Part shown: positions 7,809-60,851 of the stretch, in pieces | How positions within the stretch are numbered: the stretch's first letter is position 1 | Layout of the letters: each line of letters begins with the position of its first letter | Assembly: GCA_017506865.1 (NCBI GenBank) | Contig: JAFCMP010000053.1 | Coordinates: forward strand, 124,001 to 188,000 | Length of the DNA stretch: 64,000 nt | Source of the DNA: Tribonema minus | Taxonomy: Eukaryota > Sar > Xanthophyceae > Tribonematales > Tribonemataceae | Direction: 5' to 3' | Program-made: the position numbers and the translations under genes | The notes under the pieces: generated by a model | Told to the model about the DNA's origin: nothing | Databases searched by the model: none | The model's input: only the letters and a program-made list of their open reading frames with translations

Positions 7809-10800
7809 TCATTGTTCAAGTCCATCCATGAACTTCAACACTGCCGCGTTGCACTCCTCCGGGCGTTCATCGTGGGGGCAGTGCGCCGTCTTGGGCAGCA
7901 CGAGCAGCTGCAGCGACGAGCAGTACTCACTGAACTTGATGCCGGGGTGTAGGCCTGTGGCCAGCGGAGTCCATGGGTCCGAGTCTCCCCATATCGCCAG
8001 GATCTGGGCAGGGGGGCAGGAACATGACGAGTATGGGGGCGGTGAACGGCACTGTTAGCGTTGAAAATGTGTCCATGAAAGTGGCAGTAGCAAAGCGGCT
8101 TACCAAGGCTACCATTTGACAGTCACACGGTGGCGCCTTACCGGTACACTGTCACAGAATGGAGTCAGCGCTGTGCCGCTGCTGTGGTGGAAAAGTGCAG
8201 CATGCAGACGACTCAATGACAGAAGTACGCCCTGGCAGCAGTGCGATGTATTTTGAACTTGAAAGCTGGTACTTCAAGTACTTTAAGTTCTGGTTCCAGT
8301 TCTCACACCTTTGCGGTGCTCGACATTTCCGAAGCACTGCCAGGGAGCACGACTCTGAAGGTGCGATCTGTCACCTAACCGCAAGTGCAAGCCCCGCCCC
8401 CCTTGCACCTCAGGCGACAGCATCGGCAATGACCCAGCGCTGCTGCACATTGAGCGCTGCTGCTGCTGCTGCTGCAACTGCTGTCGCGACGCAGTGAGGC
8501 AGCGCTCATCCAGGACTGAGCGCTGCAGCACTGATGTGCCTGAGCACTGCTGCTGCTGGCTGAACTCGGGCAGCGCTCATACAACGACGTCGTTGCTACG
8601 AACAAGCTCATACTGTAGGAACGTGGGGACATTCCCGGTAGCTCAGGGGGGGGCTGAGAATCTCTCGCAGGTTGCTCTTGACTGCGCTGGTTCAAATGAG
8701 CACTTGCCTTCGTCTTGATGTTGGGAAGGAGCTCTTCCGGCGAGGGTCCCGGCGGCCCCCGGAAGACCTTGAGGAAGACCTCGCACGCGCCGTCATCATC
8801 GCTCGGCGCCAGCAAACTGCAGCAGCAGTAGGGTTCGGGTAAGAGCCAGCGCTACCACCGTCGCAGCAGCAGTTGTGCAAGGATAGACAGTAGTGCCGCC
8901 AGGATCGTTTCACACGCGCCGTCGTCACCGCTCGGCGGAAGCGAACTGCAGCAGCCGTAGTATTAAAGTTGATAGGGTTACAGCAGTGCCATAGCGCCAC
9001 CATCATCAATTGGCGTGAGTCAAGTTGGAGGTCGGCGCCAGCAAACTGCAGCAGCGGTTGCGTAAGGATGAACAGAGTGACAGTGGTGCCACCATCATCG
9101 TTTCACACGCGCCGTCGTCATCGCTCAGCGCTAGCAAACTGCAGCAGCGGTTGCGTAAGGATGAACAGAGTGACAGTGGTACCACCATCATCGTTTTGCA
9201 CGCGCCGAGCGATGGCGATCATCGTTTGGCACGCGCCGTCGTCGTCATCGCTCGGCGCTAGCAAACTGCAGCAGCAGCAGAATGACAGTTGATAGGATTA
9301 CAATACTGCTGTGGCTGTATGATTCAAGACGAGACTCCTATCACTTCGGCAACATGCAAGGCGTTGCCCCACATGTCCAGGTGCGTTTCATTTCATGACG
9401 AACCGTGAACCCCCCCCCCCCCCCAAACTATGCTACCTCATAGTCTAGCAGATGTATATATATATATACGCGAGGTGCAACGAAGGGTACTTCTGAAGTA
9501 TATAGACTATATACGCAGGGTTGCATACTTGAAGTTTATTTCTGAGTTCAAGTGCCCCTTTTGTGGTGGACTGTATGCTCGGAGTCGAGCAGACTCGCCA
9601 CATGCCCCACAAATACGCCCTTCGCGCAGCGTGTTGAGGTTTGGTCAAGTCGTATTCCTGGTTGCCAAACGCGCCCCAGATACGCCATATTTGTGTGGCC
9701 ACATACGTTTTCGCGCAACCCCATGTATGAAAACGAATCAAAAGATCGTATACTATACATACTGCTCACATGTCCAGCAGCTCCTCGTCAACCACCTCCT
9801 TGCGCACGCACACCTGCTGCTTGAGGATCTGCTGTTCTTGTGTAAGATTTTCACATCATCTTGGTCACTTCTGAAGTACAACTATATTATGATAAACTTC
9901 AACCAGTATGCATAGCAAAATGCGAGGCGCAAGTACGCACATGGCCAGCAGCTCCTCGTCGACCACCTCTTTGCACACGTACACCCGCTGCTTGAGGATC
10001 TGCTGCTGTTGTAGAATTACTTCTTCACCATCACCCCTATATAAACTTCAACAAGTATACGCGCGCATGCAAACCGCTGCTCACATGTCCAGCAGCTCCT
10101 CGTCGACCACCTCCTTGCGCACGTACACCTGCTGCTTGAGGATCTGCGTTGTGGAGCACTTTTTTACTTACACCCTAACATAAACTTCAACAAGTATGCA
10201 TAGCAGTACATTGTGTAGAAACAAGGCGCTACATAGTACTCACATGTCCAGCAGCTCCGCGTCGACCACCTCCTTGCGCACGTACACCTGCTGCTTGAGG
10301 ATCTGCTCCACGTTCGCGCGCGTCTTGAAGTTTTTGAAGAACTGCGGACCGTAGAAGTCGCCGAATATCACATTGTTGAAGAACCACCACACTGGGAACA
10401 GGAACCACGGCACCTCCTCTCGCCGAAACGACACCATGCCCCCCGCGCTGTTGAAGAGGACGCTCCCCCGTACCCGCCCGCTCTCTTGCAGCGCCGCCGT
10501 GATCATCAGCGTGAGCAGCCCTGCGTGACAGCGATCAGCAGCGCAAGATGGAAGTTAAACTACTTTGATCATCAGCTGTTGAAGAGGACGCTCCCGCGCA
10601 CCCGCCCGGTCTCCTGTAGCACCGCCGTGATCATCAGCGTGAGCAGCCCTGTGCGACAGCAATCAGCGTCAGATGCAAGTTCAACTACTGTGGTGATCGG
10701 CTGTTGAAGTGGACGCTCCCCCGTACCCGCCCGCTCTCTTGCAGCGCCGCCGTGATCATCAGCGTGAGCAGCCCTGCGCGACGGCGGTCAGAACACGAGT

Positions 10801-13800
10801 GATGACCGGACTTGAAGGTTCGCGGGCTGAGGTACAGGTTTTTGCTTTGGTTTCAAGCGCTCCCCGCAGCATCAGATGCCAGATCAACTACTGTGATCAT
10901 CAGCTGTTGAAGAGGACACTCCCCCGCACCCTGCCGCTTTCTTGCAGTGCCGCCGTGATCATCAGCTTGAGCAGCCCTGCGCGACAGCATCAGCATCAGA
11001 TGCAAGTTCAACTACTGTGGTGATCAGCTGTTGAAGAAGACGCTCCCGCGCACCCGCCCGCTCTTCTGCAGCGCCGTTGTGATCGCCAGCGTGAGCAGCA
11101 CTGTGCGACAGCGATCGGGAGCGTGGTGAGCCGTGCGGGATGCAAGTTCAACTTCTGGCAAGTTCAGCTCATTGCCGACAGCCCCAGGCGGCAATCATTT
11201 GTATGAAAACGAATCAAAAGCTGGTAGAGCTCTAGGTGACAAGGGATGGTTAGCCGCAAGTGCCTTCCACCAATGACCGTGATCGCCGCTGTTGCAGCAC
11301 TCGGCCACGAGTCAAATGAAAAAGGAATCAAAAGATCGTAGAGCTCTAGGTGACAAGGGATGGTTAGCCGCAAGTGCCTTCGACCAATAATTAGGGTCGC
11401 CGCTGCTGCAGTCATTGGCCACGAGTCAAACAGTGTCACCATAACCACAGTAGGCAAAAGACTTCTGTGTGCAAGCTTTTTAGCGTTCGAGGCATGGGTG
11501 TTCAATGTTGGCCTGCGCATGTATGCACAAGAGTTTGGTATGCTTGCATATGTACCTCATAATTTGTGTCGCTCGACATGCGCTTGTGGTGCTGCCAATG
11601 TGCCTCAAGTGGCATTGCTGACCACGGTTGACCTTATGCTGCACCGCTCATCGGGCTGCTGATCACTGCCTGCTGTCACGCAGAGCTGGTGACGCTGATG
11701 GCCATGGTAACTGAAATTCGTTCGCACAGCTCATGGGGCTGGTGATGATAGCTGCCGCTGTCGCTCAGGCAGAGCTGCTCGCACTGATGACACAGTTGGT
11801 GAAGTTTCACATGGTTGTTGAAGTTTCAACTGCACTGCTCGCCACGCTGCTGACCACGGCTGTCGAACTGGGATAAGTGCACGCTCATGGTACTTGAGCA
11901 CCAGGTCCGACACATGTGCAAAGCTGTGGACCACTTGCAGCCGTCCCCGGACGATTGACGCCAATGGCCGCGCATCATGCAACACAACACTGTCGCTGAT
12001 GCGACCAGCGTTGGCAACCAAGTCATGACCCTCGCTCTGCTGGAGTGCACGCCATGACTGCCCTCAGTGCCGCGCATGCGCAGTCAACATGCTTCCTGTG
12101 TCCAGAATAACCTACCCTTTTGTGACTCACTGGAGTTGGCAGCAAGGTAACAGCTTCAGACCCTGATGTTAGAGTTGCGAGTAAAGTATCAGCTTCAGAC
12201 CCTAATGTGGCCTGATTTGTTTGTCATTCCCACGCCTGCCGCCCACCACAGCGATATCCACTGGAGCGCAAGCCAGTGCACTTAAAAGACCATTAGCAAG
12301 CAGATTTTCTACTGAGGTGCTAGCCATTGTATTTACAGAACCACCACCTAATGAAGGAAAATGCTACTGTGGTACACGCATTATGTTCGCATGAAATATG
12401 CGTCATGCATGCGCATTCTCACCCCCAACGCTGTTCCCCATCACCATATATGTACTACGAAGTACGTACGTATGTGTGTGCATGTGCGTGTATGTGAGCA
12501 TGTATGTATGTACATATGTATGTATGCATGTGTGCTATGATGTACTTCGAAGTATGTATGTATGCGTGTAGGCATGTACTTCGAAGTATGCATCTACTTC
12601 GAAGTGTGTATGTATGCGCATTCTCACCCCCAATGCTGTTCCCCATCACCACCCAGCGCTCCGAGGCATTCCGCGACATGCTCTCTATGAAGTCCAGCAT
12701 CAGGTCCAGCCACAGCTCCATGGAGTAGTTCGCCTGCAGAGCAGAGTGATGCGTCAGTTACATGGCAGTTACATGGCAGTTGCAAACGGCGCAGGCACAA
12801 GCATCAGGTCCAGCCACAGCTCCATGGAGTAGTTCGCCTGCGGCAGAGTTAGTTACGTGGCAGTTACATGGCAGTTGCGAAACGACAGGCATCAGGTCCA
12901 GCCACAGCTCCATGGAGTGGTTCGCCTGCGGCAGAGCCAGTTACGTGGCAGTTACATGGCAGTTGCAAGATGTAACGGCGCAGGCGCAACACCGCTCACT
13001 CACGGCGATAGTCCTGACGCACCACACAATGCGCTGTAGCATCGAAGGGCGCAACAGCTCACGATCAATCGGGCAACTGTAGGCAGCTTAGACAAGTACT
13101 CACATGGGGGGGGGGCACACGGAGGAGGACGTAGGGGAGGATCCCGAGATGCCATTTGGCGGCGGCCGCGTTTGAGTGGTTGTCGTTACCACACTTTCAG
13201 ACTGTCATACGACATGTAGATTCCGTACAGCTAGATGCCAATCATCTGGGCTTTTTCGCGCCCTGAGCGAGAATTAATAGACAAGTACTCACGTCCTTGG
13301 GCTTGTCGCTGCCGCCGAACCCCAGCAGGTCGATGGCGTACGTGCGGTAGCCCGCCTGCGCCAGCGCCGGTATATTGTTCCGATAGTGCCCCACGCTCGC
13401 GCCAAAGCCATGTATCAGCACCACCGGAGGGCCATCCTCAGGTCCTAAGGAGGTGGCACGTGGATGTGAAAAGTTGAATTTGCGGATACAGTATATATAT
13501 GTTGTTTCGATAGTGCCCCACGCTCGCACCGAAGCCGTGTATCAGCACCACCGGAGGGCCATCCTCCGGTCCTAAGGAGGTGGCACGAACGTGAGGAGTT
13601 GAATTGAATTGAATGAATTGAATTTATGATATTGTCCACATGCATATGCTCGCTCCAACCAATCGTGAGGAATGGGCACACACGTAAGAGATTGAACTGC
13701 GGCTGCCGTAGACTGTGTATACGTTCACTACAATGCCTCCACCAGTGCCACCGGAGGGCCATCCTCCGACCCTGAGGAAATGGCACCAATGTGAGAGGCT

Positions 13801-15133
13801 GAATTGTAGACACCGCACGCATAGGCTCGCTCCAACTGGCCGTGAGGAATGGGCACAGACGTGAGCGATTGAATTGTGAATCCGGGATGCATATGTTTGC
13901 TTCAAAGTCGTGTATCAGCACCACCGCAGGACTATCATTCGGTGCCAAGGAAACGGCGCAGCTGAAATACAATTCGTTGCGAAATCAGGTTGATGCGCAT
14001 GCACGGCTATGTTTTCTTTCAGGACGGTGAACGCCGAGGGATGTGCCATAAAAGAATCCGCCTGACATAGTCGTGAGCCTCAGGATGTACCCGCAAGCAT
14101 TATGAAGCGTCGCGGGCTCTCAGGTGACTGCGCACTGTTGTTGGAAAGCGCACTTTACTATGATGAACACTGTAGGTTACTGTTGCAGAACTCTGGAAAA
14201 AAGAAGCAAGAAAAATGCTGGTGTGTATTCTGCGCAGTCCAAGATGCTGTTTTTGAGTGGCAGCTGGCACTGGCGATTATGCGGGTTATGAAATTATGAT
14301 GATGCAGCCGAAGACATTGCATTATGATGCATGCCTCCATATCACTACAAATGCACTAGTTGGCCTGAAGCAGTTTCGCAGTTATGTCTGGCAGCCACCA
14401 AACGTTGACCACTGTTGCAAGTGCAAATACAATTACAAACATTGATGTATTGCGCAAGTGACTGTGCTCTGGGTCAGCAGTGCTAAGCACAGCACCAGCT
14501 GACACAACAGGGACATCAGAGATATTTACGGTAATTTCAACAGAGATACTAACGGTAATTTCAACTATCCAGTACGTTGCATCAATCATGAGCCAGCCCC
14601 CAATAAGTTCTGAACCAGATGGACTGGTATGCAGCTCAGAATGCTCTGATAACGCCAGCATGCAAGCAGGCAGCGAAGAACACTTGCGGAGAATATACTC
14701 ACCAGAAAGGCGCCACGTGTGGAAATCGGAAAACAGCTAGTCACGCAGTCAACGGCGCATTGAAAGCTTTGAGACTGAAGATCTCCTGTGTGTGTGATCT
14801 CTCAAAGCAGCAGCAAGCACACTTTTGCGAGCAGTTCAGTGACAACATACCTTCAACTCTGTAGTTGATGCTGTAGCCTCGCCACGGAAAGCTGTTGTGA
14901 TATCGTTGAGGTGGTGAGCGTGCCGTGACTGGAATCTCCAAAGCTGCAGTCATCGCCAGTGCACATGGCTTCCGCGCAGAAGCGCCGACAGCGCCTGTCC
15001 CGCTCCTGATATCTAGCGTTGCCGGTGGTGTCCGAGTGTTGCTTTTCAAGGCATTTCTAGAGTATCTGACGCTCGGTGATGGGACGAAAGAAAGCACGGG
15101 CAGCGCCAGGGCGGCGAGCAGAACGCATTTCAT
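7809..15133 (-). CDS. Plastid-type alpha/beta hydrolase, 6 exons, 373 aa
   Basis: Exons in transcript order: 15133-14851, 13444-13293, 12733-12628, 10520-10244, 8816-8708, 8003-7809. They sum to 374 codons with all phases matching. Residues 1-16 are a signal peptide (MKCVLLAALALPVLS), followed at once by FVPSPSVRYSRN, the Phe-headed transit-like segment of complex plastids. The fold is clear: WRGYSINYRVEG, oxyanion loop HGFGAS (106-111), nucleophile elbow GNSIGG with Ser178, Asp318 in WGDSDPW and His350 in AHCPHDE. It resembles chloroplast pheophytinase/epoxide-hydrolase-type hydrolases; the substrate is not known. Intron 5 has a GC donor (AAG then GCAAGT). Four of the six exons have extra exon-edge copies in the adjoining introns. 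The start was chosen for the signal peptide; upstream in-frame residues lack one. Confidence 0.9.
8820..9285 (-). repeat. Acceptor-edge copies of hydrolase exon 5
   Basis: Three to four decayed tandem copies of the start of exon 5 (LLAxSDDDGACE) with the preceding CTGCAG acceptor and upstream intron lie in the intron before the exon. The best unit is about 90 bp (9035-9210, two nearly identical copies). Confidence 0.85.
9430..9915 (+). other. Antisense open frame with CPFCGG motif inside a hydrolase intron
   Basis: A 161-codon frame opposite to the host gene, AT-richer than its surroundings, with YLKFISEFKCPFCGG and a later PYLCGHIRF. The Cys pairs recall zinc-finger proteins of the XS type, but no exon structure or upstream ATG context supports it. 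Its 3' part overlaps donor-edge copies of hydrolase exon 4, so at least that part is a shadow. Confidence 0.2.
9769..10150 (-). repeat. Donor-edge copies of hydrolase exon 4
   Basis: Three copies (about 9769-9838, 9940-10008, 10083-10147) of the last ~65 bp of exon 4 (QILKQQVYVRKEVVDEELLD), each ending at the same ACATG splice-site position. They lie in the intron just downstream of the real exon end at 10244. The copies agree on GAG (Glu) where the exon has GCG (Ala). Confidence 0.9.
10560..11110 (-). repeat. Acceptor-edge copies of hydrolase exon 4
   Basis: Four copies (about 10567-10655, 10705-10785, 10909-10980, 11035-11105) of the first ~75 bp of exon 4 (LLTLMITAALQESGRVRG) with the preceding GCGCAG-type acceptor lie upstream of the real exon start at 10520. 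Confidence 0.9.
11201..11440 (+). repeat. Dispersed repeat family A, two tandem copies
   Basis: Copies at about 11201-11316 and 11319-11440 share GAATCAAAAG, GAGCTCTAGGTGACAAGG, ATGGTTAGCCGCAAGTGCC, CCACCAATAACCGTG-like and GGCCACGAGTCAAA blocks. Further copies lie at 34144-34270, 36644-36722 and, inverted, 28700-28825; a 5' fragment lies at 9727-9755. No coding capacity and no clear terminal repeats; possibly SINE- or MITE-like. Confidence 0.8.
12412..12620. repeat. (GTAT)n microsatellite with embedded TACTTCGAAGTA palindromes
   Basis: A degenerate GTAT/GTGT array carries TACTTCGAAGTA or close variants at about 12453, 12541, 12573 and 12595. One donor-edge copy of hydrolase exon 3 (CACCCCCAACGCTGTTCCCC) lies at 12424-12445 on its left side. 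Confidence 0.75.
12790..12970 (-). repeat. Acceptor-edge copies of hydrolase exon 3
   Basis: Two copies (about 12795-12845 and 12890-12945) of the start of exon 3 (YSMELWLDLMLD region) with the CTGCCGCAG-type acceptor. They are separated by a repeated AGTTACATGGCAGTTGC unit. Confidence 0.85.
13190..13292 (-). repeat. Dispersed repeat family B, starting at a splice donor (introner-like)
   Basis: From the donor of hydrolase exon 2 the intron reads GTGAGTACTTGT and then a ~95-bp block containing ATTCTCGCTCAGGG, GCGCGAAAAAGCCCAGATGA and CTGTACGGAATC. A close copy lies at 19560-19680, also beginning at a GTACTT just after a possible exon end. Confidence 0.75.
13490..13955 (-). repeat. Acceptor-edge copies of hydrolase exon 2
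   Basis: Three decayed copies (about 13500-13590, 13735-13800, 13905-13955) of the exon 2 start (GPEDGPPVVLIHGFGAS) lie upstream of the real acceptor at 13445. The nearest copy is the least diverged. Confidence 0.85.
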
Positions 15134-15975: not shown

Positions 15976-18900
15976 TCATGTCTTCAATCTGGCGATGCTG
16001 ATGCCGTCGCGCATCGGCAGCACCACCACCTCCACGCGCGAGTCGCCCTGCACATGCAGGTTGTAAGCGTGCAGCGCGCGCGCAATGCGCAACCGCCGCC
16101 GCCGCTGCTTGTCCTCCGCACCCGCCGGCGCCGCCCCTTCCGACTCCGACTCTGAGCCAGAGTCGGCCGAGTCAGAGTCTGACTTGGAGTCGAGTTCGCT
16201 TTGGGACCACGCCGCAGGCACCATGCCCTTGAAGAGCACATTGTCAGCGAGTATGAGACCGCCGGGCGCGAGCAGACCGAGTTGAAGTATCGCTTCGTAG
16301 TAGTCCTGGTACTTGCGCTTGTCGTTGTCGATGAAGACGACATCGAAGGGGGGCTCCCCCACACCCGCGAGGGTGTGTAGGGTATCCATCGCGCGCCCCT
16401 CGATGATGGTCACCTGATCTCTATAGGGGCTGCAAGGTGCACAAACACGAGCGAGCCGGTATGGAAGATTAAGGATGGCACTGACGCATGCGTGCTCGGG
16501 TGCATCTGGCAGTACACGGTGAGCCGTGTCGCATGGGCTGGACGCACAGTTGATGTTCGCATCTGCATTCCTGTGGCGCATCATGCACGTAGTAGACCAG
16601 ACTCCCACGCACCACCTTCAGAATCACAGCAAGGTCGTTGAGCTTTTATGTTTGTCGCCAAGAGAACCATGCATGCATGACTAATCACATCTTCAATCGA
16701 CATTGAAGGTGAACAACGGGCTGCCCTGCGTGCTGCAGACTCTTTGGCGACTGCCGCTGCCCACAGGACAACGCCGCAGCTGACAAACCCTAGCCCTGAC
16801 CGTAACCCTACTAGTACCAAGCGCGTCCTTCTTTGCTTCTGTAGAGTCAGGCTTCAATGCAGGCTCTCTGCGCTCCATGTACTTGTCGGCCAGCGCCGCG
16901 GCATGACAATCAACAGACAGCGGCCGCAGTCGCCAAATTGCCAAGAATTGTTTCCCCAATACTCCCCCTCCGCCCTCCCCTCGCCCCCCCCCCAGCCAAG
17001 TTCAGCGCTAGTCAAACCCTGAGCGGCGCTCTGTGAGACCCCTCCCTTGAATCAAGACAGATTCACACAATCTCGCAGCCGAACTTCAACTGGTGGCTCA
17101 CCTGCGCCCCACAAAGTCCCTGGCCACCGCAGCTGCGCGCGGATCCAGCTCGCACGTGACGACCTGTGCGCCACCCTCAGCAAAGCACAGCGCGCTGTAG
17201 CCGGTGAACGTCCCCAGCTGACGTGGGAGGTGCGGTGGCACGGAGCAAGGGCACAGTGAGTGAGGCACTGCACGCAGGCTTTGAAACTTTGCACAGCGCG
17301 ACTGCGCTAGGCGCAAAATCGGGTGGTGACGTTGCACAGCTCAATTCGTGTCGAGGTCGGGTCCAGGGTTACAGTTAGGGTTAGGGGTAGGGTGAGGGTT
17401 AGCCGGGCGCACTTGCGGTTGTGTCACATCAGGCGCTGGCGCAGAGCCCGGCACGTGCCGCGGCTGTCCCTGCAGCTGCCCTACGCTCTCTCGCCGAGCC
17501 CTCGGCGGCGGGCGCTATTGCATCACGCAGGCACCGCAAGCAGGTGCCTCGGAAATGTATGCGGCGGCTTCTGAGTACGGATGATGGTAAGCATTACCGC
17601 GACAAACTTGAACTTTTGAAGTGCACAACCCACCTCCACCACTCCTTTCGCCCCCACGGCGGCGGTGATGGTCGCATTTACAGCCACCCCAGCAGGCTTG
17701 CTTTATGAGCACTGGTGATGACAACTATCATGTGCTATATGATTCAGTACAATGAAATAAAACTTCAAATCGCACAGCCCACCTCCAGCACGCGCTTTGA
17801 CCCCGCGGCGGCGGTTATGGTCTTCGGCAGCCGCCCCTGCAGGCTTGCCTGTTGAGCGCTGGTGACGACGAGCATCATATGCTACATGAATCAGAGCAAT
17901 GAACTTCAATTACAGCCCACCTCAAGCACCCTGTTTGCTCCCGCGGCGGCAGTGATGGTCTTCAGCAGCCGCCCCTGTTCAGATCAAAGACAACAAAGAC
18001 CATGGGCTACTTCTCAGCATGTATATCCATAGCGCTACTTCCAACTGCGAACTTCAATTACAGCCCACCTCAAGCACGCGCTTCACCCCCGCGGCGGCCG
18101 TCATGGTCTTGAGAAGGCGCCCTTGCAGGTGCCCCGACACCATGTGCCGCGCCTGCGGGAACGCTGCCGCGGTCTCCGCGCGCAGCTGCGTCAGCAGCGG
18201 CGGCTCCGCTTCGCTGCAGCGCGCCGTAAGGAAGAAAGGGCAGCACGCACACCCCCAAATCAGTTCACTTGAGGTGACACGGTGACGCAGCGCGGGATAT
18301 GCCCCCCCTTCTAGCTGTTGGAGGCGCAGCTGCGTCAGCAGCGCCGGCTCTGCTTTGCTGCAAGTGTGCCAAGGGGAGGGGGGGGGGGGGCAGCGCACCC
18401 ATACTTGAGGTCGCTGGAGGTAACACGGTCATGTTGTTTGCAGTGTGGGGATATGTCGATACATCGATGCCGGCATGCACCCGCCGCGTTCAGCAGCGGC
18501 GGCTCCGCTTCGCTGCGGCGCGCCGAAGGGGAAACAGGCAGCACGCACACCCCGCAGATTATTTCACATGAGGTGACATGGTGACGCAGCGCGAGACATG
18601 TCACTAGTCGTAGCCATCACAGCCCTGACTTGGGGTTAGGGTTAGGGTTAGGCGCAGTGGCGCTCCGAAAGGAAGAATGGGGGGCAGCGCACCCATACTT
18701 GAGATCGCTTGAGGTAACACGGTCATGTTGTTTGCAGCGCAGGGATGTATCGCGTACTTTAGGGGTCGCTTGAGGTGACACGGTCATGGTAATTGCAGCG
18801 CGGGGTGTATCGGTACCGACATTCACTCGCCGTGGTCGTCCGAAACCCCCGGTTTCGGGTGACGTGGCGCGGCGCAGCGCCGATCATTGCTGCGCGCATG

Positions 18901-31317: not shown

Positions 31318-39207
<7,890 letters not shown>

Positions 39208-49700: not shown

Positions 49701-52700
49701 AAGCTGTGACGTGCGTGTTACCGAGGGCGCCTCTTATGAATGCACCCCCCTCCCCCCTTCCCCCCCCCATCACTCTTGCAGGTTTTCCGGAACCCTGGAA
49801 TGGCGTGCACACTCAGGGAGCTGGGGGAGGGTGGACAGCACGCTTTCTACGGGGGGAGGGTGGGGCGCGCCATAGTTGAAGTTCTGGCGCTGGCGGGAGG
49901 GGTCCTGAGCATGGACGATCTGGCCATGCATGAATCCACGTTCCCTGAGCCAATATCTGTGGATTACAAGGGGGTGAGTAAGGGGCCTGCCGCAATGGTT
50001 TTATGTTCTTGTGTAGTAGAAGCACATGTTTTGGAGCGCAGCATACGTCTGTCTCCATGCTCCTCTGTGAATCGGTTAGCGGGGGGGGCAAGTAGGTATG
50101 CGCGAGCAGGCAGACGCAGCAAAGCTTCAGCAGATCCTGACCTGTCGGCACCGCCAGGGTCTGAGGCGTGTGTTTGAGCACTGCCAGTTCCAGCGCGCCG
50201 ACGCGCGCAGCACCGCGGTTCATGCGCGCACCCCGGCACGTCGAGAGTCAGGGTTAGGGTTAGGGTTTGGGGCAAGGGGTTAGGGTTACGCGCGGCGCGC
50301 TGGCGCAGACTCGCCGCTGCATGGTCTGCTGCCGATGGTCAGCGCGCTGGGAAATACTCTGCGACGCTTCTGTCCTGCGCGCCCTTAAGTGGCACCGCTG
50401 CCCTGGCGTTGAGTCGTAATCACGAGTCTCAGTGGCGTAGAGGCGCGGACGTGCCGCACGTGACCGGTGGACCAAGGTCAGTCATTGACACGCAGCAGTT
50501 TCGCCAGTGCCATTACGCAGTAGTGGGCGCCTGGACATTTGCTACAGATTCAGGCAGTTGGCGGCACTGATGTTGCGTTGGGACAAGAGGGGAGAGGGGG
50601 GGGGAGCAGATCTGCAACACAATGTAACTGGCGCAGCAGACAGGAGAGCAGCTGCTGAATGTTGAGACGCTTTTTAAGAGTACAATTTCAATCTCCAGAG
50701 CAGCAGGACTGAGCAGGATTAGTGGCACGTGATGGATGCTGTGACCAAAGATCCAGCATGTTGACCAACCAGCGTTGACACTTTGATCAAATTTTTGCAT
50801 GAGCTCCCGCAGCATTGCTCATCGCCTGAGCGCTGACCTCATCCGTGCTTTAGCTACTTGCATAATCGCGCACCAATCGCCTATGGCATCTGTTGCAAAT
50901 GCAGAAGCAGCAGCTGGCGGGCTGCCTTTGCATCTTTGCGAGCGTGCTGCGTATTTCTCGTGTGTCACCGGTGACATCATGACCATTGACTTTTGTCTTG
51001 GCCATGAGGTTCGGGGTGCATTGCTGATTTGTTGCCAAGATGTGCTCTTCTCATTTGATCACCGAGACATTGCGCTTACAGCAATGCCTGCCACTTGGGG
51101 CAGCAATGTCATCTCTTGCTGAATGTCACAGCAGTCTTTGTCTTCGTCAAGCAGCATTTATGCACGTCTCAATGCCACTCTCAATTTGTCTCATGTATCT
51201 GACAACAGGTGCGCGTATTTGAGGTACCTCCAAATGGCCAAGGCATCACCGCCCTGCTGGCTCTGAACATACTAGCAGAGCTGGAGCAACAGTATGAGGA
51301 GGCAGCCGGGGATCCGCATGGGGCCGACGAGGGGCTGGCAAACCGCTTGCACGCGCAAATTGAGGTGACTCCTCACAATCACTTTTGTGGTACCACTGCA
51401 GGAAGCAAATCCTCTCTCAACTACAGTCGCTATGAGACTCTAATAAGAGTCTGCCTCTATCAATTGCTTGAACAACAGAATACACTTTGAACGAACGCCG
51501 ACCATGACAGTATGCTGATTGGGGAATGCACAGCAGAAGCCCCAGGCAGTGCTGCGGCGCTGAGGCTGTCCATAGTGTCTCCATCATAATGGTGCGTTTG
51601 TGTGTGCAATGGGGGAGGCGGGTCTGCGGGGGGCCTTGCAACAGTTTGCAGTGGGGCTTTGGTGGCCTAAGACACAAAAACCCATGTAGAAAGGCCCGTT
51701 ATCACCTGTTAGCAGACCTGCCTGGAGGATGGGGCGCTCACTCGTGTGTTAGCACAGTTCTAGTAGACGTACTGGTGATGCATGCAGCCAAGAACCAAGG
51801 CGTATCGGAACGCACTTTGAGGCCTCAGCACTGCATGCCACCCCCCCCCCCCCCTCTTCCCGCCCCCACGCACCCCTACATATAAGCGCATGTATGCCCC
51901 AATCACGCACCCCATATACACGCATGTATGCCCACGCACGTTTCACAAATACGAGCGCATGTACCCCCACGCACACGCACCACACTTGATAGGCACACAC
52001 GCTCACCAAAGCTACATGCACTTATTTGGCGCGCTCAGGCATTGCGGCTGGCATTTTCGGACACGCGCTACTACTGCGCGGACCCAGACGTGGTGGACGT
52101 GCCAGTGGTGCAGCTGCTCAGCAGAGAGTACGCGCGCGAGCTCAGTAAACTCTTTGACCCGCAGAGGTGAGTCTCGAGTCGTGGCTCCTGCAGGCATCAC
52201 TGATAGATAGCCTCGGTGATCGCCCATCAATGATTGCTGTCAGAATATCATCTAAGGGGCCATTTTACTGTGCTTGTTTAGTGTCGAATCAGTCAAACCT
52301 TGTGTCAAAAGCCTTTTTCGCGAGTCCTGACTGAAGTGGGTGCTGGTGTTGCTCAGCACAAATTGCACATGCAAGTGCAGCAGTCGTTGCGCATCGCGGG
52401 AGTGGGATGTTCTTCTGAGACTCAAAGTCTGACTCCACAGCAGCACTTTGAAGCGAATGGTCTTGCGCACAGGCCGCATTGTCATCGCTGATGCAGCGGC
52501 TTGGCACAGGCAGGCATCCTGCAGCGGATCGCTGCTGCAGAAGCTGACAGGATTACAACAGTGGCAGCGCAGCATGATCGCGTGTGATTCCACCCATGGA
52601 TGGACTGAAAGCGGTACACTGCGCAGTGTGTCGGTGTCTTCAACTTGTAATCCACCATCAGTACGTGCTACTTTGATAACTTCGATGTACACCACTCAGC

Positions 52701-55700
52701 ACCGCCTCATGCTCCACCTGTCGGTACATGTATCGATGACTGTTTCCATGTACGCTTTACATACACACAACTCAGCACCGCTGTACGCCGCCGCGCCGCG
52801 CGCAGCGCGTGTCGCCAGCTGCAGCACGGGCACCCCGCGGTGCAGTCCCGCACCGTCAGCTTCCAGGTCGTTGACGATGCGGGCAACGCCACGAGCTTGG
52901 ACCACTGCATGCTTATTCATTATCAACCAACGCTTGCCATGTTCACAACTCAGCACCGCCGTAACGCCGCCACGCCGCGCAGCGCGTGCCGCCAGCTGCA
53001 GCACGGGCACCCCGCGGCGCAGTCCTGCACCGTCAGCTTCCAGGTCGTCGACGATGCGGGCAACGCCGTCAGCATGGTCGTCTCCAACTATGAGGGCTTC
53101 GGCACGGGCCTCGTGCCAACGGGCTGCGGCTTCACGCTGCAGAACAGGGGGCTGAACTTCAGCCTCGACGCGGCGCACCCCAACTGCCTGGCGCCGGTGA
53201 GCTCACTGAATGCACCGCAGTGTGTATGGCGCGTGCGCGCGTTTGGGCCAGGGTCTTGATTTTTTTGTGCTGCCGAGGAGACGGAGTGACTCCGAGCCTG
53301 TGCTGCTGAGGAGAGTAAGTGACTCCGAGTTGGAATGCTCTGCAGGACGCTGACATTGCGAACTCATCGGCAGCCTGCGCCAAGAGTGTTCCAGTTGCGG
53401 GGCACAGATGAGCTCGAAGCGCTCTCTGGAGTAACCTAAGGGTGTTTCAGAGTACTGTGACAACTGAAATGTTGCGATTCAGAAGCAGGTGCAATGCACT
53501 GGAGTGGTGATGTCTTTTTTTTCAATGTGAAGCATGTTCAAGCCCGTTAAATGCTTTGTCGGCTGTGGGCCCACTGGGTGCGGTCTCTTGACGCAGAAGA
53601 AGTTGGAAGGTTGGAGAAGTTCAAAGGCATTGGCGCCCTGCCACCCGATGCGCCTGACTGTTGTGAGTCCATTGATGATTGCGCTTTTGGTCAGCTATGC
53701 CTGCACCTTGACAGTATGCTATGAATATTTGATAAGGCTGACACTGTCAGGCTGAATGTGTCTTATGGGCTAGCCAGTGGTTGTCACACAGAGTTGCATG
53801 TGACTTTTCGAGGACTGTTTCTGTGGGTTTGCTGATCATCACCACATAGAGGGAGACATCAACCCCCATCCACAAACCCTGCCTCTGACAGGCTGACTTA
53901 TCTGTATGCCTGCCTGTCGTGCTGTGTCCCAATGCGTGCTCCACGCTCACCCCTGTCGGCACGGTGGCCTCAACGATTTTCAGGGCAAGCGGTGAGTGTG
54001 GAGATGCTGATCAGTAGCCTAGCCAACCCTCCATCAAACCACATCTCGATTATGACTTCACTTGCTGCTGACCATTACCGCGTTCCAGTCAGTTGCCTGG
54101 ACTGATCTGGGGCAAAGGCTCAGAGTTGGAGTCTGACTCAATGGTGAGGGGTGAGCACAGGCCGCCGCTTGGTACACTGTGAATGGTGTTGTGTTCAGTG
54201 AAACTTGACGTCAAGATGATCTGATTCAACAAACTTGCAGTACAAGTCGCAAAGGAAATGTTTTGCTATGATACTATCGAGCTATCATTATTATGATAGT
54301 GTGTGTGTTGCAAAAAAAATACAGAAGGAAGTATTTATTCATGAATAAGGCTGGCTGCAGCAGCCAGACAACATTAAGCATTGTTGGTGGTTTTGGCTTA
54401 CTCATTGGCATGCCACGGCGGCTGACGTGTTTGACCGCCTTGCTCAAGCTTTTACAGAGCAACAGACGGGCTGGGATGCAGCGGGCTTAATCTTCAGCTT
54501 GCTGCGTGTCGTGCGCCCAGGTGTTGTCGATACAACACATCTCGATACCTGTGGCCTAGGTGTTGTCGACACAACGCATCTCGGTACCTGTTGTCAATAC
54601 AACGCGTCTCGTTCCCTGTACCAAAATGCATTGTATCGACACCACCTGGGCGCATGTGATCCACAAGACGTTGATGCAGCTGATGCATTCTTGGCACCTG
54701 CATGACGCTTGAGGCTTCGAGATGCATACAATTTGTAACCAGTTATACTGCCTACGCTCAGCTGACGAAGAGGTGCCGAGCTGCATGCAATTGTATGGAC
54801 ACATAGGGAAGCACAATGTATATCATAATGTGGGCACTTCCAAGCGCACGATGCTGCTGAAAATCCGCATGCTGGTAGCTAGGGCGTCTTGCTATGGTGT
54901 TGTCAAATGCATTGCATTACACAGCCAAAGACCCACAGGCCCTGCAGCATCGTAGCTGCAGCAGCGGCCCGCTCCAGCGCGTAGTCATCGCAGTCGAAAC
55001 TTCACGGCTTTGCAAAATTGTCAAAACCTCACGATACCATCAGGTACAGCCCGCAACGCAAGCGCAAGCCAGCCACCGCCGTGGTGGCTTCGTAACTGTG
55101 CGTTGCTCTGCATGAAGCTCATGCAAGCTGCCGCCAAGTGAGGAAGGGGGCGAACAACGGGGGCATGCCGGCAGCGTTTGCGAGTGTGAGCACACAGCCA
55201 GCAGCGCGGCAGCATTGCGTTGGCATGCTGCCGTTGGAAGCCACCGTGATGGCGCAGCGAGTACTGACTTCCACTGCAATCAGCAGCAATGACGGCATCG
55301 CTGCCGCTCTATCCGGAGGGTCTGCCGCGATCCCACCTGGAACAGCATTAAATTTTCGAGAAAGAAGCGCGCAAACACTCTACCTCCACCAGGGGCCCCG
55401 AAGAACGTCATCAGGCTGCTTAACAACACCTGCAGGGCATTCCACGTGCCAACACAGGTGCAGGCGACCTTTGCTATGGACAGCGCCGGCATGCCGCCGC
55501 TCCGCATCATTGAGTATACAACCAAAACCGTCGGCAATTTCCAGGAGCTCGCAGGCTTGTGGGTGCTGTTTGTAGTGCTATGTAATGGTTTACAAGTACG
55601 GCGCGGACGCACCGCCTGTCACCCCGGGGCGCGTCTACGTAAGCTACCTGGACTCGGTGCCGTTCATGCGGCTGTGCCATGCGCGCACTGCCCTTCTCCA

Positions 55701-58700
55701 AGGCACTCTGCACGCACACGTCGACTGGTTGAGGTGGCGCGGCTTCACCAAGGCGAACCTCTCTGGGTCTGTGCGCCAAATAGCCCACAGTTTTTGTTTC
55801 TGCAGCGCCCACCGCACCAGAAGACCCCGAATCAAGAGGGGCTGGAGGCGTGGTACCGCAACATGGCGGGAGGCGCGGTAACGGCAGGCATGATGATCGC
55901 CACTCATTTCACTGACTTCTTCAGTGACAAGGAAACACTGCGGGAGTCGAGAGCAGCTAACGGACGCCCACTACTGTTCCCCCTGTTTCAGGAGGACCTC
56001 GTGCCGAAGCTGCTGCAGCGCATGCTGACAGGGCGTGAGGGCGCCGCTGATGCCTCTACCACGCTGTTGGCCATGTGGAAGCAAGTCAAGGCGTTGCAGG
56101 AGCAGCTGCTGGTCATCCACGTCTTGCGCTCTGCTGCAAAGATTGCAGGCGCAGACGGACTGGCACCTGCTGCAGCTGCAACAGTGGCTGCAGCAGCGGC
56201 AGTTGGGGCAGCAGCAGAGCGCACAAGAGGTCGATGACCAGCAGCTGCGCTTTCGACGCCTGACTCGCTTCCAGGTGGCTGACACCATGGTGGAGGTTGG
56301 CAGCGTGGCGTCAGCGGCGCGCTCGGCCTCTGTTAGCACGCGCTGCAGCACTGCAGCTTTGGCACGATGTCCCCCTGAAACAGGGGGAACAGCAGCGGGC
56401 TCTGTCAGCACGCCCTGCAGCATTGCAGCTTCGGCACTAGGTCCCCCTGAAACAGGGGGAACAGCAGTGGGCGTCCGTTGGCTGCTCTCGACTCCCGCAG
56501 TGTTTCCTTGTCACTGAAGAAGTCAGTGAAATGAGTGGCGATGCCTGCCGTCACCGCGCCTCCCGCCATGTTGCGGTACCACGCCTCCAACCCCTTTTGG
56601 TTCGGGGTCTTCTGGTGCGGTGGGCGCTGCAGAAACAAGCACTGCGAGCCTTTGCCAGGCGCGCAGACCCAGAGGTGCGCCTTGGTGAAGCCGCGCCGCC
56701 GCGGCCAGTCCAGGGTCTCCGTGCAGCGCGCCTTGGAACAAGGCAGTGCGCGCATGGTTTGGCTGCATGAACGGCACCGAGTCCAGGTAGCTAATGTAGA
56801 CGCGCCCCCTGTTGGTGGGCGGTGTGTCCGCGCCGTACTCGTGCACCATCAGCACGAAGAACAGCACCCAGACGCCGTCCAGCTCCTGAAAGATGCCGAC
56901 GGTTTTTGCAGTGTAGGGGATGATGGAATCAGGGCGGCGTGCCAAAGGTGTCAGTTGCGAAGGTCGCCTGCATCTGTGCTGGCACGTGGAACGCCTCGCG
57001 GGTGTTGTCGAGAAGTTTGATGATGTCCTTTGGGGACCCTGGAGGGAGGAGCACGTTTGCCCGCTCCTCCAGATGCTGGTCCAGGTGGGAGCGCGGCAGA
57101 CTCTCGGCGCAGAGCGGCCGCGGTGCTGCTGTTGAAGTTGAAGTCGAGGCGGGAGACGTGCCACCAGCATAGCCCGCTGGAGAGGTTGCACGCCGCGATA
57201 CCTCCTCAGCAGGAGCGGCGGCGGCGGCGGCAGCGCTGCAAGCGGCGCGCGCCGCGCACTGCTGTGCTGCTGCGCAGCTGCCTGTGCGCTGTTACCGTGC
57301 CGCCCACGGACGCCCGCTGCTGCTGTGCGCGTGCCTACGCGACATCATGGCTGTGCGTTTGCACTGAACGCACGTGAATACGACACGCTCTATTTCATGC
57401 GCTGGATAGTACTCCATGCACATGCGTTGCATCCAGCAGTGCTCAGCCTGCACTCCACCACAGCTCAGCGTTGGCAAATGTAAAATGCGCGCTCCGTGAG
57501 CTGTTCCCTTCAGCCCGGCCGTGGCGTGTGCCCGATGTGCGGACGCTTGCACGCGCCGCACAGAGGCGGCTGCTGCTGCCGTAAGCACAAGAGCAGCGGC
57601 GCACTCACAGGCGAGTTTGCACTGAGCACTGAGCTAGTGACAGTTGCTGATGCCGATCAGGAGGAGATAGTGAAGAACGTAAAGGCGATCCGATAGTGCG
57701 CCATGCAAACTCCTACTTTGCTAGAGCGACCGATGGTACGCATTGCGTGCCAGCAGCGCCTGCACCCAGCCGCACTACCTTGCTCACAGCAGCAGACCCC
57801 CCTGGTGGCAGCATTTTTCAAGTGGTGCAACGCGTGCTACGAGAAGTTCCAGGAGTTTGTCCTCGATGACCACCCTGGCGCTTGTCCCACCATTCAGCCA
57901 CGGTACCGAGCGTCAGCAGCACCATCACCACCAGCAGCAGCGCTGGCTCCAACAGCAGCGGCAGTGCTGCTGCTGCTGCGCGCCGCTGGCACGGCTGCTT
58001 TTGTGCGCTGGCTCGTGGCTGTGGTGGTGCTGCTGCTGCTGCTGCTGCGGGAGCTGCTGTCTGGCCGTATGGTGCAATAAGTGTGGGGATCTTCCACAGC
58101 GGATGGGCATCACCGTCGGGGACATTTGTGTTTCTTCCTGTCGTCGTATGGGTAGCGCTTCCTGCGCATACCCTCCGGTGTGGCCCAGTACTGATGTGTT
58201 GCCATGCTTTGTGCTGGTGCACGAAAGCAACGGCGCCACCAGCGCATAGCAGCGCGTCCCACACGCGATGCACTGTTTGCTCTTGCATGACCGGCGCTGC
58301 ATCAACGCACTGGCAGGCCATGACTCAGCCTGCGGCAGAACGACTTTCCTTCTGCCATTGTGCTTGCTGTTACTGATCGTTGGCTTGTCCTTGCTGCATT
58401 TGTTTGTTGTGCTTACATAAGTAGAGCATATTGTTTTAATACGTTGTTTGTGAGAACACCAAGGGGTCCAGTCTGCTCACCCGCTGCCATTCTCCTTGAT
58501 GTCAAATAGGCCGTACCATACCATCATACCCTGCATGGCAACGGTGGCGGCCACGGGGGAGTTGTACGCCACGCTAACAAATATGGGCAGGTTCATGCAG
58601 CCGCAGGGACATCTGCAGGTGAGAGCAGCGCTCACTTTTTCACATGCATTCATTTTGGTGATGGAACATGCACAGTAGTTCATGTCCAGGTTGTAGGGAC

Positions 58701-60851
58701 ATGTGCAGGTGAGAGCAGCGCTCACTTTTACACATGCATTCATGGACTTTCTTGATGACAGCGCACAGCTCAGTTCATGTTGAGGTTGACAGTGCACAGC
58801 TAAGTTCATGTTTGTTGAAATTGGGTTTTGTTGGGTTGACGTGGCCGTTCATATTTGCCTCTTGGGTTCTCATTGTTCACTGCTTCTAGTAACAGATGCT
58901 CTAGCCGCAAGCCTTGTGTCTGCAACGGTCCTCCGATCGTCCATCTCTGGCTCGGTGGCGAGCTATACGCTCTCAGTTGCAGTCTACGGGGATGACAGGA
59001 ATGAATGCGCATCTTTCACCTGTGCACCAGGGTCGAATGATGCTGGGCGGCATGCTGCACAGAATTACAACAGAACTTAAGGACACGGAAAATGTGCACT
59101 CACTCAGCGCTAGCTGTGGATGACACTGCGCTCATGTAGCGTGGTTCAGATTGCCACCGACTCTGAGTGGCAATTGCGTGCATTAAGCAGGATTCATGAA
59201 ACCGTTTTGACCCGCCTCACTCCTTCAAACGCGCGACGAAGTGCCGCGTTGGGTCTCGTGCGTTGACAGATTTGAGGCGCACGCACGGGTACATCCCACA
59301 TGTACTCCATACACATGCGCGAATTTGCAACTCGGACTGCAGTGCTGCTGACCGATGAACTCACAGATGCTGCAGCTAGTGTCGCACTTCATATTTCAAA
59401 AGCAAACGCTACGTTATTTCACACAACTTGCGATCCGTGCAAGAGTCGCAGCCGCTTGCCGCCACCCCTAGCTGCGTGGGCTGAAGCCCCTGCCGGCGAC
59501 TTCGAGGGCCATCACATTCTTTGACGCTTCACCTCACCCACTACCGTGTTTGCCCTGCTGCTGTGCCGGCGCCGCCGCCGCCACGCCGCCACCTGCTGCT
59601 GCAGCTGCTGTGCCACCTGTTGCGAGGCGTGGACCCGCAGACCGCAGTTGACATGCCGCGCTTCTGCATCACCGACATTGACGGCGGGCGCAGAGTAGAC
59701 ATTGAGGACGGCACGCCAGACGAGGTATGTATGCATTGAATTTTGGCGTGCGGCGCAGTGTGGTCGCTGTATAGTCTACATAATATGGATAGTTGAAGTT
59801 ACAGTCATATTTGATGTTGACATGCCGCGCTTCTGCATCACCGACATCGATGGCGGGCGCAAAAAAGGCATAGAGGACGGCACGCCGGGCGAGGTATGTG
59901 TGCGTGTGGCCCCAAAAACACCTACTGCAGAGTCAAAATTGTGGCTGGGTCAAGCTCTGGCTCTGTGTGTTCAATGCTTCGCAGCCGGATCAATGACGGT
60001 CGCCGTGCCATGCAACACAGCGCAGACGGACAGACAGGACGGATCGCCTGCACTTGATTTCTACACAGCGCTTGCCTTCCATGAAGCACAACAAATACAA
60101 AAGGTGCTTGAGTGTACGTGTAATTTCTGCGTGAAAGCAATCATGTGCATCGTGCGCATGCGAAAGGTTAGGGTTAGTGTACGTGCTCAAATGATATGTT
60201 TTGACACTCAATGCCTTCGTGACCGCATCGTCTCACGTGCGCGTCAGATCGTGGAGAGCCTGCGGCGGCGCGGCCACGACGTGCGCGTGCTGTGCGGTGT
60301 TGTGCATTTTATAACTAATCATGTGCTCGTGACTGTGTCGTATAGCACGCGCGCCAGGTCGTTGAGAGCCTGCGGCGGCGCGAGCACGACCTGCACCCAC
60401 GCGCAGTGCCTGCCTTCCGTGCAGCACCATAAATTGAAGGGTGTTTGAACGTACGCGGTGAATTATGCATCAGAGTAGCTGTTTCTAAATTGTGCGCAAA
60501 AACGATTTACTGTCCTCGTGACCGCATCGTCTCGCGCGCGCGACAGGTCGTGGAGAGCCTGCAGCGGCGCGGGCACGATGTGCGCATGCTCTGCGGCAGC
60601 ACACAAAATTGACAGGTGTTTGGATGCACGCCGTACATTATGCGTGAAAATACTCATTTGCATTGTGCACCGTGTCGTGCGCGCGACAGGTCGTGGAGAG
60701 CCTGCGGCGCCGCGGGCACGACGTGCGCGTGCTCTCCGGCCACTCGCGAGCGCAGTTCGGCCGCGCGCAGATCATTCTGCGCGACGGCACTAGCGGCGTA
60801 CTGTGGTGCGGCAGCGACGGGCGCGCGGACGGCATGGCCATCGCCTTCTGA
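46761..60851 (+). CDS. Gamma-glutamyltransferase, 11 exons, 570 aa
   Basis: Exons: 46761-46992, 47340-47453, 48204-48481, 49782-49973, 51209-51364, 52039-52166, 52983-53196, 53984-53991, 58510-58618, 59605-59724, 60690-60851; 571 codons, all in phase. The enzyme cleaves or transfers gamma-glutamyl groups of glutathione and related substrates. Visible family blocks: [72 protein letters not shown], nucleophile Thr383 in [57 protein letters not shown] and [11 protein letters not shown]. The last exon ends [12 protein letters not shown]. No signal peptide is seen, and the VSFQVVD/QPQGH style resembles the YwrD-like bacterial branch. The GKR codons come from an 8-nt exon. Upstream in-frame residues exist to 46695, but the ATG at 46761 is the first Met. 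Confidence 0.93.
48005..48110 (+). repeat. Acceptor-edge copy of GGT exon 3
   Basis: It repeats GCGGCCCCTCC..CCCGCACACGGTAACGGC..GCCGCGTGGGAC, the start of the exon at 48204, with a TTGCAG-type site before it. It has diverged by substitutions. Confidence 0.88.
48640..49180 (+). repeat. Donor-edge copies of GGT exon 3
   Basis: Three copies (about 48695-48780, 48890-48952, 49080-49172) of the exon end ([23 protein letters not shown]), each followed by a GT or GC site and by CTTGAAGTTCAG-like sequence. The G runs vary in length (10-14), as slippage would give. Confidence 0.92.
50250..50288 (+). repeat. TTAGGG-type tract
   Basis: Several TTAGGG units interrupted by GTTTGGGGCAAGG, in GGT intron 4. 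Confidence 0.8.
52790..52910 (+). repeat. Acceptor-edge copy of GGT exon 7 (nucleophile exon)
   Basis: The first ~100 bp of the exon including the codon for the nucleophile (CACCGTCAGCTTCCAGGTCG) and the GCGCAG acceptor are repeated about 185 bp upstream with few changes. It is a strong decoy. Confidence 0.92.
53984..53991 (+). CDS. 8-nt micro-exon of gamma-glutamyltransferase
   Basis: GGCAAGCG lies between TTTTCAG and GTGAGTG. It supplies Gly-Lys and two bases of Arg of the conserved APGKRPYHT block. Without it, exon 7 (phase 0 end) cannot join exon 9 (needs two bases before its first G) in frame, and the family-conserved GKR would be missing. Confidence 0.85.
54515..54665. repeat. Dispersed repeat family C, tandem copies
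   Basis: AGGTGTTGTCGATACAACAC and CATCTCGGTACCTG blocks occur two to three times and once inverted. They are related to 19915-20150. Confidence 0.7.
55303..56137 (+). pseudogene. Intronless p300/CBP histone acetyltransferase domain fragment, plus arm
   Basis: Translated pieces match the KAT11 catalytic core of p300/[86 protein letters not shown] and a final [20 protein letters not shown]. The pieces lie in different frames with at least one shift, and the start of the domain is eroded, so this copy is not functional. It has no introns although all neighbouring genes are intron-rich, which suggests a retrocopy. It sits in the 4.5-kb intron of GGT, in the same orientation. Confidence 0.8.
56216..57118 (-). 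pseudogene. Intronless p300/CBP histone acetyltransferase domain fragment, minus arm
   Basis: An inverted partner of the plus arm, about 80-85% identical by eye over most of its length and better preserved at the N-terminal side: [68 protein letters not shown]-like [15 protein letters not shown] and [19 protein letters not shown]. It has a frame break near the start and a second near the middle of the domain. A ~75-bp tandem duplication lies at 56345-56475 (CCCCCTGTTTCAGGGGGAC twice). The arms are separated by about 78 bp. Confidence 0.8.
57119..58509 (+). other. Rest of GGT intron 8, Ala/Leu-coding CAG/CTG-rich DNA
   Basis: Downstream of the pseudogene pair the DNA is rich in CTG/CAG runs that give long open frames on both strands (poly-Leu, poly-Ala). 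A plus frame at 57703-58080 starts plausibly ([16 protein letters not shown]) but turns into low complexity. No exon is supported. Confidence 0.4.
58675..58755 (+). repeat. Donor-edge copy of GGT exon 9
   Basis: AGGGACATGTGCAGGTGAGA and TTTACACATGCATTCATG repeat the exon end at 58618 and the first ~45 bp of the intron; the unit is about 90 bp. Confidence 0.88.
59810..59905 (+). repeat. Donor-edge copy of GGT exon 10
   Basis: It repeats [20 protein letters not shown] and DGTPGE with donor GTATGTGTG, about 175 bp downstream of the real exon end at 59724. It is a nearly intact decoy. Confidence 0.93.
60230..60605 (+). repeat. Acceptor-edge copies of GGT exon 11
   Basis: Three copies (about 60235-60300, 60345-60410, 60535-60600) of the last exon's start ([15 protein letters not shown]) with GCGCGxCAG acceptors, upstream of the real start at 60690. 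The unit is about 110-190 bp. Confidence 0.92.

Follow-up and report, generated by a model that had tools for sequence, protein, structure and literature searches.

Tandem copies of exon edges in the introns of five genes within a 64-kb window of Tribonema minus DNA

The introns of five genes in the window analysed here, i.e., the whole stretch of 64 kb, contain tandem arrays built on copies of their own exon edges, and 21 of the 23 arrays found in closed introns include a splice junction. Each copy joins the end of an exon, the splice site, and a part of the adjoining intron. It is considered fairly likely that these arrays derive from recurrent short duplications across exon borders, which are amplified and spliced out via the exon-proximal sites. 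Intron growth is usually ascribed to transposable elements and random insertions. If the pattern is general, introns would gain length by a route that follows gene structure, the decoy splice sites would offer a natural collection in which to study how the correct one is chosen, and gene prediction would face a trap, because the copies resemble exon ends.

Gene models and copies of exon edges

Gene families were assigned by open reading frame scans and Pfam, and exon ends were placed by eye using protein similarity, GT and AG dinucleotides (with one GC donor), and phase. Three genes were modelled on the minus strand and two on the plus strand of the 64-kb window (Table 1). They contain 23 introns of 177-5275 bp, and all five models have reading frames that stay open after removal of these introns. 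The alpha/beta-hydrolase gene, whose last intron is GC-AG, is recognised by the Pfam profiles Abhydrolase_1 (5.1e-23) and Abhydrolase_6 (5.6e-22). An exon at 12347-12236, assumed initially for this gene, was discarded for want of a closing frame, and 10520 was taken as the start of the following exon. The Pkinase profile is covered completely in the kinase gene (1-263 of 263), and comparison with solved structures points to the DYRK1B chain 8c2z (1.5e-88).

The gamma-glutamyltranspeptidase (GGT) gene matches positions 2-512 of the 512 of its Pfam profile (E 1e-118), and residues 16-579 align with the solved structure 2nlz (E 1.6e-107). The latter, a bacterial enzyme, differs in length by no more than 6 residues at the joins that bear arrays, with no copy-sized insert. 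The join of exons 7 and 8, which has about 10 residues extra relative to this best solved homologue, is doubtful and may be misplaced. GGT is far less similar to GGT1 chains such as the human 4gg2 (1.5e-22) than to 2nlz. With nine introns and 2nlz as the closest solved structure, it is possibly a gene of bacterial origin with later intron gain.

Copies were sought from sequence only at the 49 junctions of the five genes, by comparison of 60 bp of exon and up to 60 bp of intron with the intron to which the junction belongs. A copy was counted as strict when the similarity covered at least 8 nt on each side of the splice point. By this measure at least one intronic copy is present at 23/49 junctions (10/23 donors and 13/26 acceptors), with 46 copies overall, and no strict copy is present at 26/49. 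The looser search yields 63 copies at 25/49 junctions, from one to five at each. Mononucleotide shuffles gave copies in 0/920 cases (46 closed-intron junctions, 20 shuffles each). Test positions internal to the introns, searched in both directions, were positive in 143/942 cases, and in 37/408 at distances of over 500 bp from the junctions; some of these positives must fall within arrays beginning at a junction. The rebuilt models and the shuffles confirm what the initial annotation had described, namely one to five edge copies within introns of five genes on both strands, and its figure of more than 20 junctions is reached in the strict and in the looser search alike. Self-comparison of the window reveals 97 pairs of direct repeats that are 30 bp or longer and lie less than 3 kb apart, and a more sensitive version groups repeats into 37 clusters spanning 16.8 kb. 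No Rfam match was found at gathering score, and two exon proteins had no related contig in viral_contigs.

The copied exon part measures 14-104 bp and the recognisable intron part 1-200 bp. Neighbouring copies are 38-558 bp apart, with a median of 145 for acceptors and 159 for donors. Among 17 multi-copy arrays, 5 have exon-side ends that agree to within 3 bp throughout, another 5 have such agreement between two or more of their copies, and 7 have none. Where present, the agreement suggests a single founding duplication that was later amplified. On the intron side, the similarity ends within 20 bases in 30/62 pairs and runs through the whole unit in others. Young copies whose exon parts are almost identical show this early end as well, as at the kinase exon ending 37022 and the hydrolase exon ending 12628, and this early loss is not well explained by plain tandem duplication. 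Inspection of the aligned arrays by eye for microhomology at the breakpoints revealed no clear motif.

Table 1. Genes, exons, and exon-edge arrays in the 64-kb window
Feature	Position	Strand	Remarks
alpha/beta-hydrolase gene	7809-13444	-	open spliced frame and Pfam; 5' end not located
alpha/beta-hydrolase exons	13444-13293, 12733-12628, 10520-10244, 8816-8708, 8003-7809	-	
O-methyltransferase gene	15976-18213	-	open frame and Pfam Methyltransf_3 3.9e-37; 5' end not located
O-methyltransferase exons	18213-18069, 17217-17102, 16429-15976	-	
SpoU-type methylase gene	21853-25244	-	open frame and Pfam SpoU_methylase 1.5e-20; open at both ends
SpoU-type methylase exons	25244-25150, 23746-23570, 22038-21853	-	
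DYRK-like kinase gene	31390-38366	+	open frame; Pfam Pkinase 1.6e-45; start and end open
DYRK-like kinase exons	31390-31503, 31681-31881, 33201-33395, 34618-34698, 35512-35633, 36758-37022, 38166-38366	+	
GGT gene	46761-60851	+	10 exons; 580-residue open frame from ATG to stop
GGT exons 1-5	46761-46992, 47340-47453, 48204-48481, 49782-49973, 51209-51364	+	
GGT exons 6-10	52039-52166, 52983-53196, 58472-58618, 59605-59724, 60690-60851	+	start of 58472-58618 doubtful
Acceptor-edge array, upstream of hydrolase exon 13444	13371-13951	-	
Acceptor-edge array, hydrolase exon 12733	12696-12989	-	2 copies
Donor-edge copy, hydrolase exon ending 12628	12405-12651	-	
Acceptor-edge array, hydrolase exon 10520	10447-11123	-	4 copies with ~74 exon bp each
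Donor-edge array, hydrolase exon ending 10244	9756-10307	-	3 copies
Acceptor-edge array, hydrolase exon 8816	8781-9302	-	4 copies
Acceptor-edge array, methyltransferase exon 18213	18180-18832	-	
Donor-edge array, methyltransferase exon ending 18069	17623-18129	-	3 copies
Acceptor-edge array, SpoU exon 25244	25182-25676	-	3 copies
Acceptor-edge array, SpoU exon 23746	23683-24484	-	4 copies
Donor-edge array, SpoU exon ending 23570	22586-23641	-	5 copies
Acceptor-edge copy, SpoU exon 22038	22228-22295	-	weak; score 48, 76% identity
Donor-edge array, kinase exon ending 31881	31861-32198	+	
Acceptor-edge copy, kinase exon 33201	33002-33235	+	
Donor-edge array, kinase exon ending 33395	33321-34423	+	3 strong and 2 weak copies
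Acceptor-edge array, kinase exon 35512	35069-35546	+	
Donor-edge array, kinase exon ending 35633	35611-36113	+	
Donor-edge copy, kinase exon ending 37022	36999-37106	+	31 bp identical
Acceptor-edge array, kinase exon 38166	37748-38234	+	
Acceptor-edge copy, GGT exon 48204	48012-48280	+	4 intron nt aligned; outside strict count
Donor-edge array, GGT exon ending 48481	48393-49160	+	3 copies; outside strict count
Acceptor-edge copy, GGT exon 52983	52752-53067	+	
Donor-edge copy, GGT exon ending 58618	58605-58788	+	14 exon bp
Donor-edge copy, GGT exon ending 59724	59647-59903	+	
Acceptor-edge array, GGT last exon 60690	60217-60740	+	3 copies

Anchoring of the arrays at splice junctions

The 23 closed introns hold 23 tandem arrays, a count that leaves out three arrays upstream of first modelled exons. 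The 21 arrays that include the junction contain at least 15 bp of exon in 20 cases and 14 bp in the last (58605-58788). In a sliding control based on the best pair of each array, 17 junction arrays compare with 3.97 expected, and this number was reached in 0/200,000 simulations. When each intron was shortened to one unit per array, which mimics its earlier length, 5.42 of the 23 arrays were expected at junctions against the 21 present (0/300,000). Rotation of the gene structures against the arrays in 5,000 trials placed on average 9.8 and at most 17 clusters at junctions, compared with 23/27 observed; by best pair, 20 compare with a mean of 7.8 and a maximum of 15.

A real edge is constrained, so that copies of it stay recognisable for longer, and masking was used to remove this detection bias. 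Exons and all exon-similar stretches were masked, and arrays were sought from intron-derived sequence alone. Of the 23 arrays 16 are still detected, and 14 of these are junction arrays against 3.0 expected, where the 14 counts any pair of an array and the expectation refers to the best pair; like for like, 10/16 lie at junctions by best pair (P 7e-5). The excess at junctions survives masking and hence is not solely a matter of slow decay of exon sequence. The two non-junction arrays that remain after masking lie in a dispersed repeat (11206-11430) and in an inverted-repeat element (56324-56472), and the masked search of the 23 introns found no further intronic repeat pairs beyond the 23 arrays. 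Duplications wholly inside the introns are nearly absent. Neither the position of the arrays nor the rotation test fits plain tandem repeats placed regardless of gene structure, and an enrichment at exon edges over random positions is present in the self-comparison of these 23 introns (21/23 arrays).

Other repeats are also present in the window. The dispersed repeat is about 110 bp long and occurs in five copies, including one tandem pair (11206-11430, 28640-28815, 34147-34268, 36643-36723); two patterns derived from it have no exact match in viral_contigs. Inside GGT intron 7 lies an inverted repeat (55295-57126, 751 bp, 80% identity), one arm of which is overlain by a minus-strand open reading frame (56526-57344) that matches Pfam HAT_KAT11 of p300/CBP type (5.5e-7), and the long plus-strand frame of the other arm has no Pfam match; the whole may be an intron-borne element that is mobile or duplicated. 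Interstitial telomere-like tracts of TTAGGG or its complement occur at 24617-24652, 26061-26103, 34056-34076, and 63425-63457. Exon-edge-like arrays are seen by eye outside the five genes at 20462-20905, 26453-26680, 27201-28092, 42004-42696, 43449-43789, and 44356-44825. In six stretches near such arrays, five open reading frames match nothing in Pfam at E 0.1 or lower, a joined gene guess gives only DUF2568 (E 0.015, below its cut-off), and a HIG1-like reading of a minus-strand gene near 43.7 kb is unsupported by Pfam. Given this lack of Pfam support, the counts do not include the ten repeat clusters that lie beyond the five genes.

Junction arrays make up 9,117 of 27,400 intron bases (33%), and 16 introns contain one. 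Since the other 7 of the 23 introns have none, the introns are padded with copies; the initial claim that they are built from them proved too broad. Profiles of 61 copies, searched with nhmmer, give 3 hits in all other introns and 85 in the intron of origin; the 85 include self-matches of the real edges, and therefore no clear hidden layer of older copies in intron interiors is read from this search of the introns.

According to the preferred explanation, a segment straddling the exon-intron border would be duplicated next to itself, with a spacing mostly of 80-300 bp, and the unit would then often be amplified, leaving one to five extra edges within the intron. Splicing would take the exon-proximal, outermost site, as is expected of exon definition. 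Duplications would be tolerated because the outer sites are used; the mRNA would stay unchanged, each duplication would be close to neutral, and the intron would grow. With less certainty, the anchoring may arise from the mutational process itself, if breaks or template switches occur preferentially at exon borders, and the link to the border may perhaps be provided by nucleosome edges or by co-transcriptional splicing. A mutational process tied to exon borders is favoured because duplications wholly inside introns, which ought to do no more harm, are scarcely seen, and geometry with purifying selection leaves this unexplained. The near-nucleosome-size spacing and the step in GC content between exons (66%) and introns (57%) are leads only. 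A wider proposal, in which a duplication process is directed to splice junctions and chromatin or co-transcriptional splicing prompts repeated local DNA copying across the lineage, can be advanced only tentatively. If it were true, introns would extend inward from their edges and splicing would have to pick the exon-proximal site among near-perfect decoys.

The arrays could instead reflect random tandem duplication combined with selection and history, whereby exonic duplications were removed and most of the others date from very short introns, in which a unit could hardly fit without reaching across an exon edge. Each step of this account is a known mutation type, and the median spacing of 145-159 bp is close to the length of the shortest intron (177 bp, without an array). 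However, the collapsed introns predict 5.42/23 arrays at junctions and not 21, even if introns may once have been shorter still. Moreover, highly similar copies (best intron-only identity 94-98% at 8781-9302, 10447-11123, and 12696-12989) lie at the edges of introns of 559-2107 bp. This account is regarded as rather unlikely; it and a selected role in splicing are the chief alternatives to the preferred explanation.

It was also noted initially that donor copies lie only downstream and acceptor copies only upstream, with the full exon as the outermost copy. Both statements hold as patterns and lose their weight as evidence. A duplication crossing a donor can only place its copy downstream, and one crossing an acceptor only upstream, so that the polarity is largely geometry; the outermost position of the full exon holds by construction.

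Divergence of the copies and decoy splice sites

Copies diverge from the real edge by 0.132 in their exon parts and by 0.188 in their intron parts. Among themselves they diverge by 0.189 in exon-derived parts, which equals the edge-to-copy value for intron parts, and by 0.223 in intron parts. This is the pattern expected of one constrained exon and unconstrained copies. At exon bases covered by two or more copies, the changes seen in one copy alone are spread over codon positions 1, 2, and 3 as 69, 68, and 64, whereas those seen in the real exon alone number 4, 3, and 11 (Fisher p 0.018). The copies thus look, from their sequence, non-coding and roughly neutral. The decay with distance from the exon proposed in the initial annotation is seen as a weak trend, the nearer copy being more similar in 44/67 unequal pairs; strong decay was not found, as the nearest copy is the best in 9/17 arrays.

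The copies retain features of splice sites. GT or AG is kept in 54/61 copies of the looser set that are aligned at both bases. Scored with a matrix of the 23 real sites, donor copies (n=26) reach 7.66, real donors 8.98, and other intronic GT -1.69, and the values for acceptors are 6.80 for copies (n=28), 7.28 for real sites, and 0.93 for other intronic AG; copies and real sites are related, so these scores reflect retention and not independent strength. The use of a copy in place of the real site, evaluated in 54 cases, leads to a stop in 45, to a frameshift in 6, and to an open frame in 3. The claim that the frame closes only with the full exons is thereby upheld for 51/54 copies and fails for 3. 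Repeated local duplication at junctions, which lengthens introns and fills them with decoys, is supported by the anchoring, by site scores near those of real sites, and by these 51 copies whose use would wreck the protein, and the statement is confined to the 64 kb of the window. As a separate observation, TTGAAGTT is the intron 8-mer most over-represented by number of introns (10/23), with 20 sense and 4 antisense occurrences against 0.2 expected from base composition, counts that are inflated by array copies; by eye it often lies shortly after a donor or a donor copy.

A selected function, by which the copies aid or regulate splicing through extra U1/U2AF sites or through unproductive or recursive splicing, is unlikely. 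It would be suited by the near-consensus splice scores and by the retention of splice dinucleotides in 46/51 copies. Indeed, splice bases in copies are retained in 97/102 cases and neighbouring exon bases in 372/431 (one-sided p 0.007; neighbours counted at donor positions -8 to -1 and acceptor positions 0 to 8, copies within an array not being independent), and a weak function of the copies is possible on this basis. No selection against decoy sites is seen, the splice dinucleotides being kept and not lost. On the other hand, divergence in the exon-derived parts of the copies matches that in intron parts and shows no preference among codon positions, and about half of the junctions have no copies. 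Recursive splicing sites require a pyrimidine tract before AG|GT, whereas exon sequence, judged by eye, precedes AG in the donor copies.

Intron birth from a tandem-duplicated exonic AGGT segment (the Rogers model), with the arrays as multiple copies of the founding segment, appears highly improbable. Some exon joins do read AG|GT, and multi-copy versions are reported in fission yeasts in the available part of PMC4974935. Nevertheless, intron starts compared with the next exon start have a mean score of 11.8 (cross-pairs 12.0), and intron ends compared with the previous exon end one of 13.0 (cross-pairs 12.2, standard deviation 2.4). With their own scores so near those of cross-pairs, this model was rejected for the 23 introns at the score sensitivity used; moreover, the copies consist of an exon with its own intron edge and not of two joined exons. 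An artefact, i.e., assembly error, pseudogenes, or copies that are alternative coding exons, is scarcely credible in view of the approximately 13% divergence of the copies from the real edge in exon parts, the five open proteins matching their families, and copies that lack codon-position bias and break the frame in 51/54 cases.

Relation to known systems

A search of the open-licence PMC literature, a scope with subscription papers and preprints largely outside it, returned no match for systematic exon-edge copying. The initial view that no described system corresponds stands for the systematic pattern, which did not show up there, and has to be narrowed for single boundary duplications, which are already known. 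The nearest case is the RdRp gene of potato, in which one tandem duplication spanning an intron-exon boundary created a new intron, as described in the accessible part of PMC4974935. There as here (23/49 junctions, strict), the stretch that was duplicated takes in exon sequence, the splice site, and intron sequence. The potato case, so far as that part of the source describes it, is one event in one gene, whereas the 21 arrays found here in closed introns are spread over five genes, lie at both donors and acceptors, and are often amplified. Furthermore, a new intron was made in potato RdRp, whereas the protein is apparently unchanged here, with phases that close with the outer exons in the predicted models.

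In the intron gain of Rogers and Hellsten, an AGGT segment is duplicated (PMC4974935), and cases are given for Drosophila (PMC2891723). As far as the available portions of these sources extend, the likeness is a local tandem duplication that ends within an intron and leaves the protein unaltered. The difference is that an exonic segment with a proto-splice site there gives rise to a new intron, whereas here an existing junction is duplicated and an existing intron lengthened.

Introners, in the excerpted text of PMC9860276, likewise involve a mass change of protist intron content tied to splice sites; however, they are dispersed elements common to many introns, unlike the copies described here, which are specific to their own intron (85 vs 3 hits). 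Direct repeats near intron-exon borders are also the subject of PMC11782384. In the part of that source available, these repeats measure 4-30 bp (mean 11.4) and lie at or near both borders of an intron, whereas each array described here belongs to one border and consists of copies of tens to hundreds of bp.
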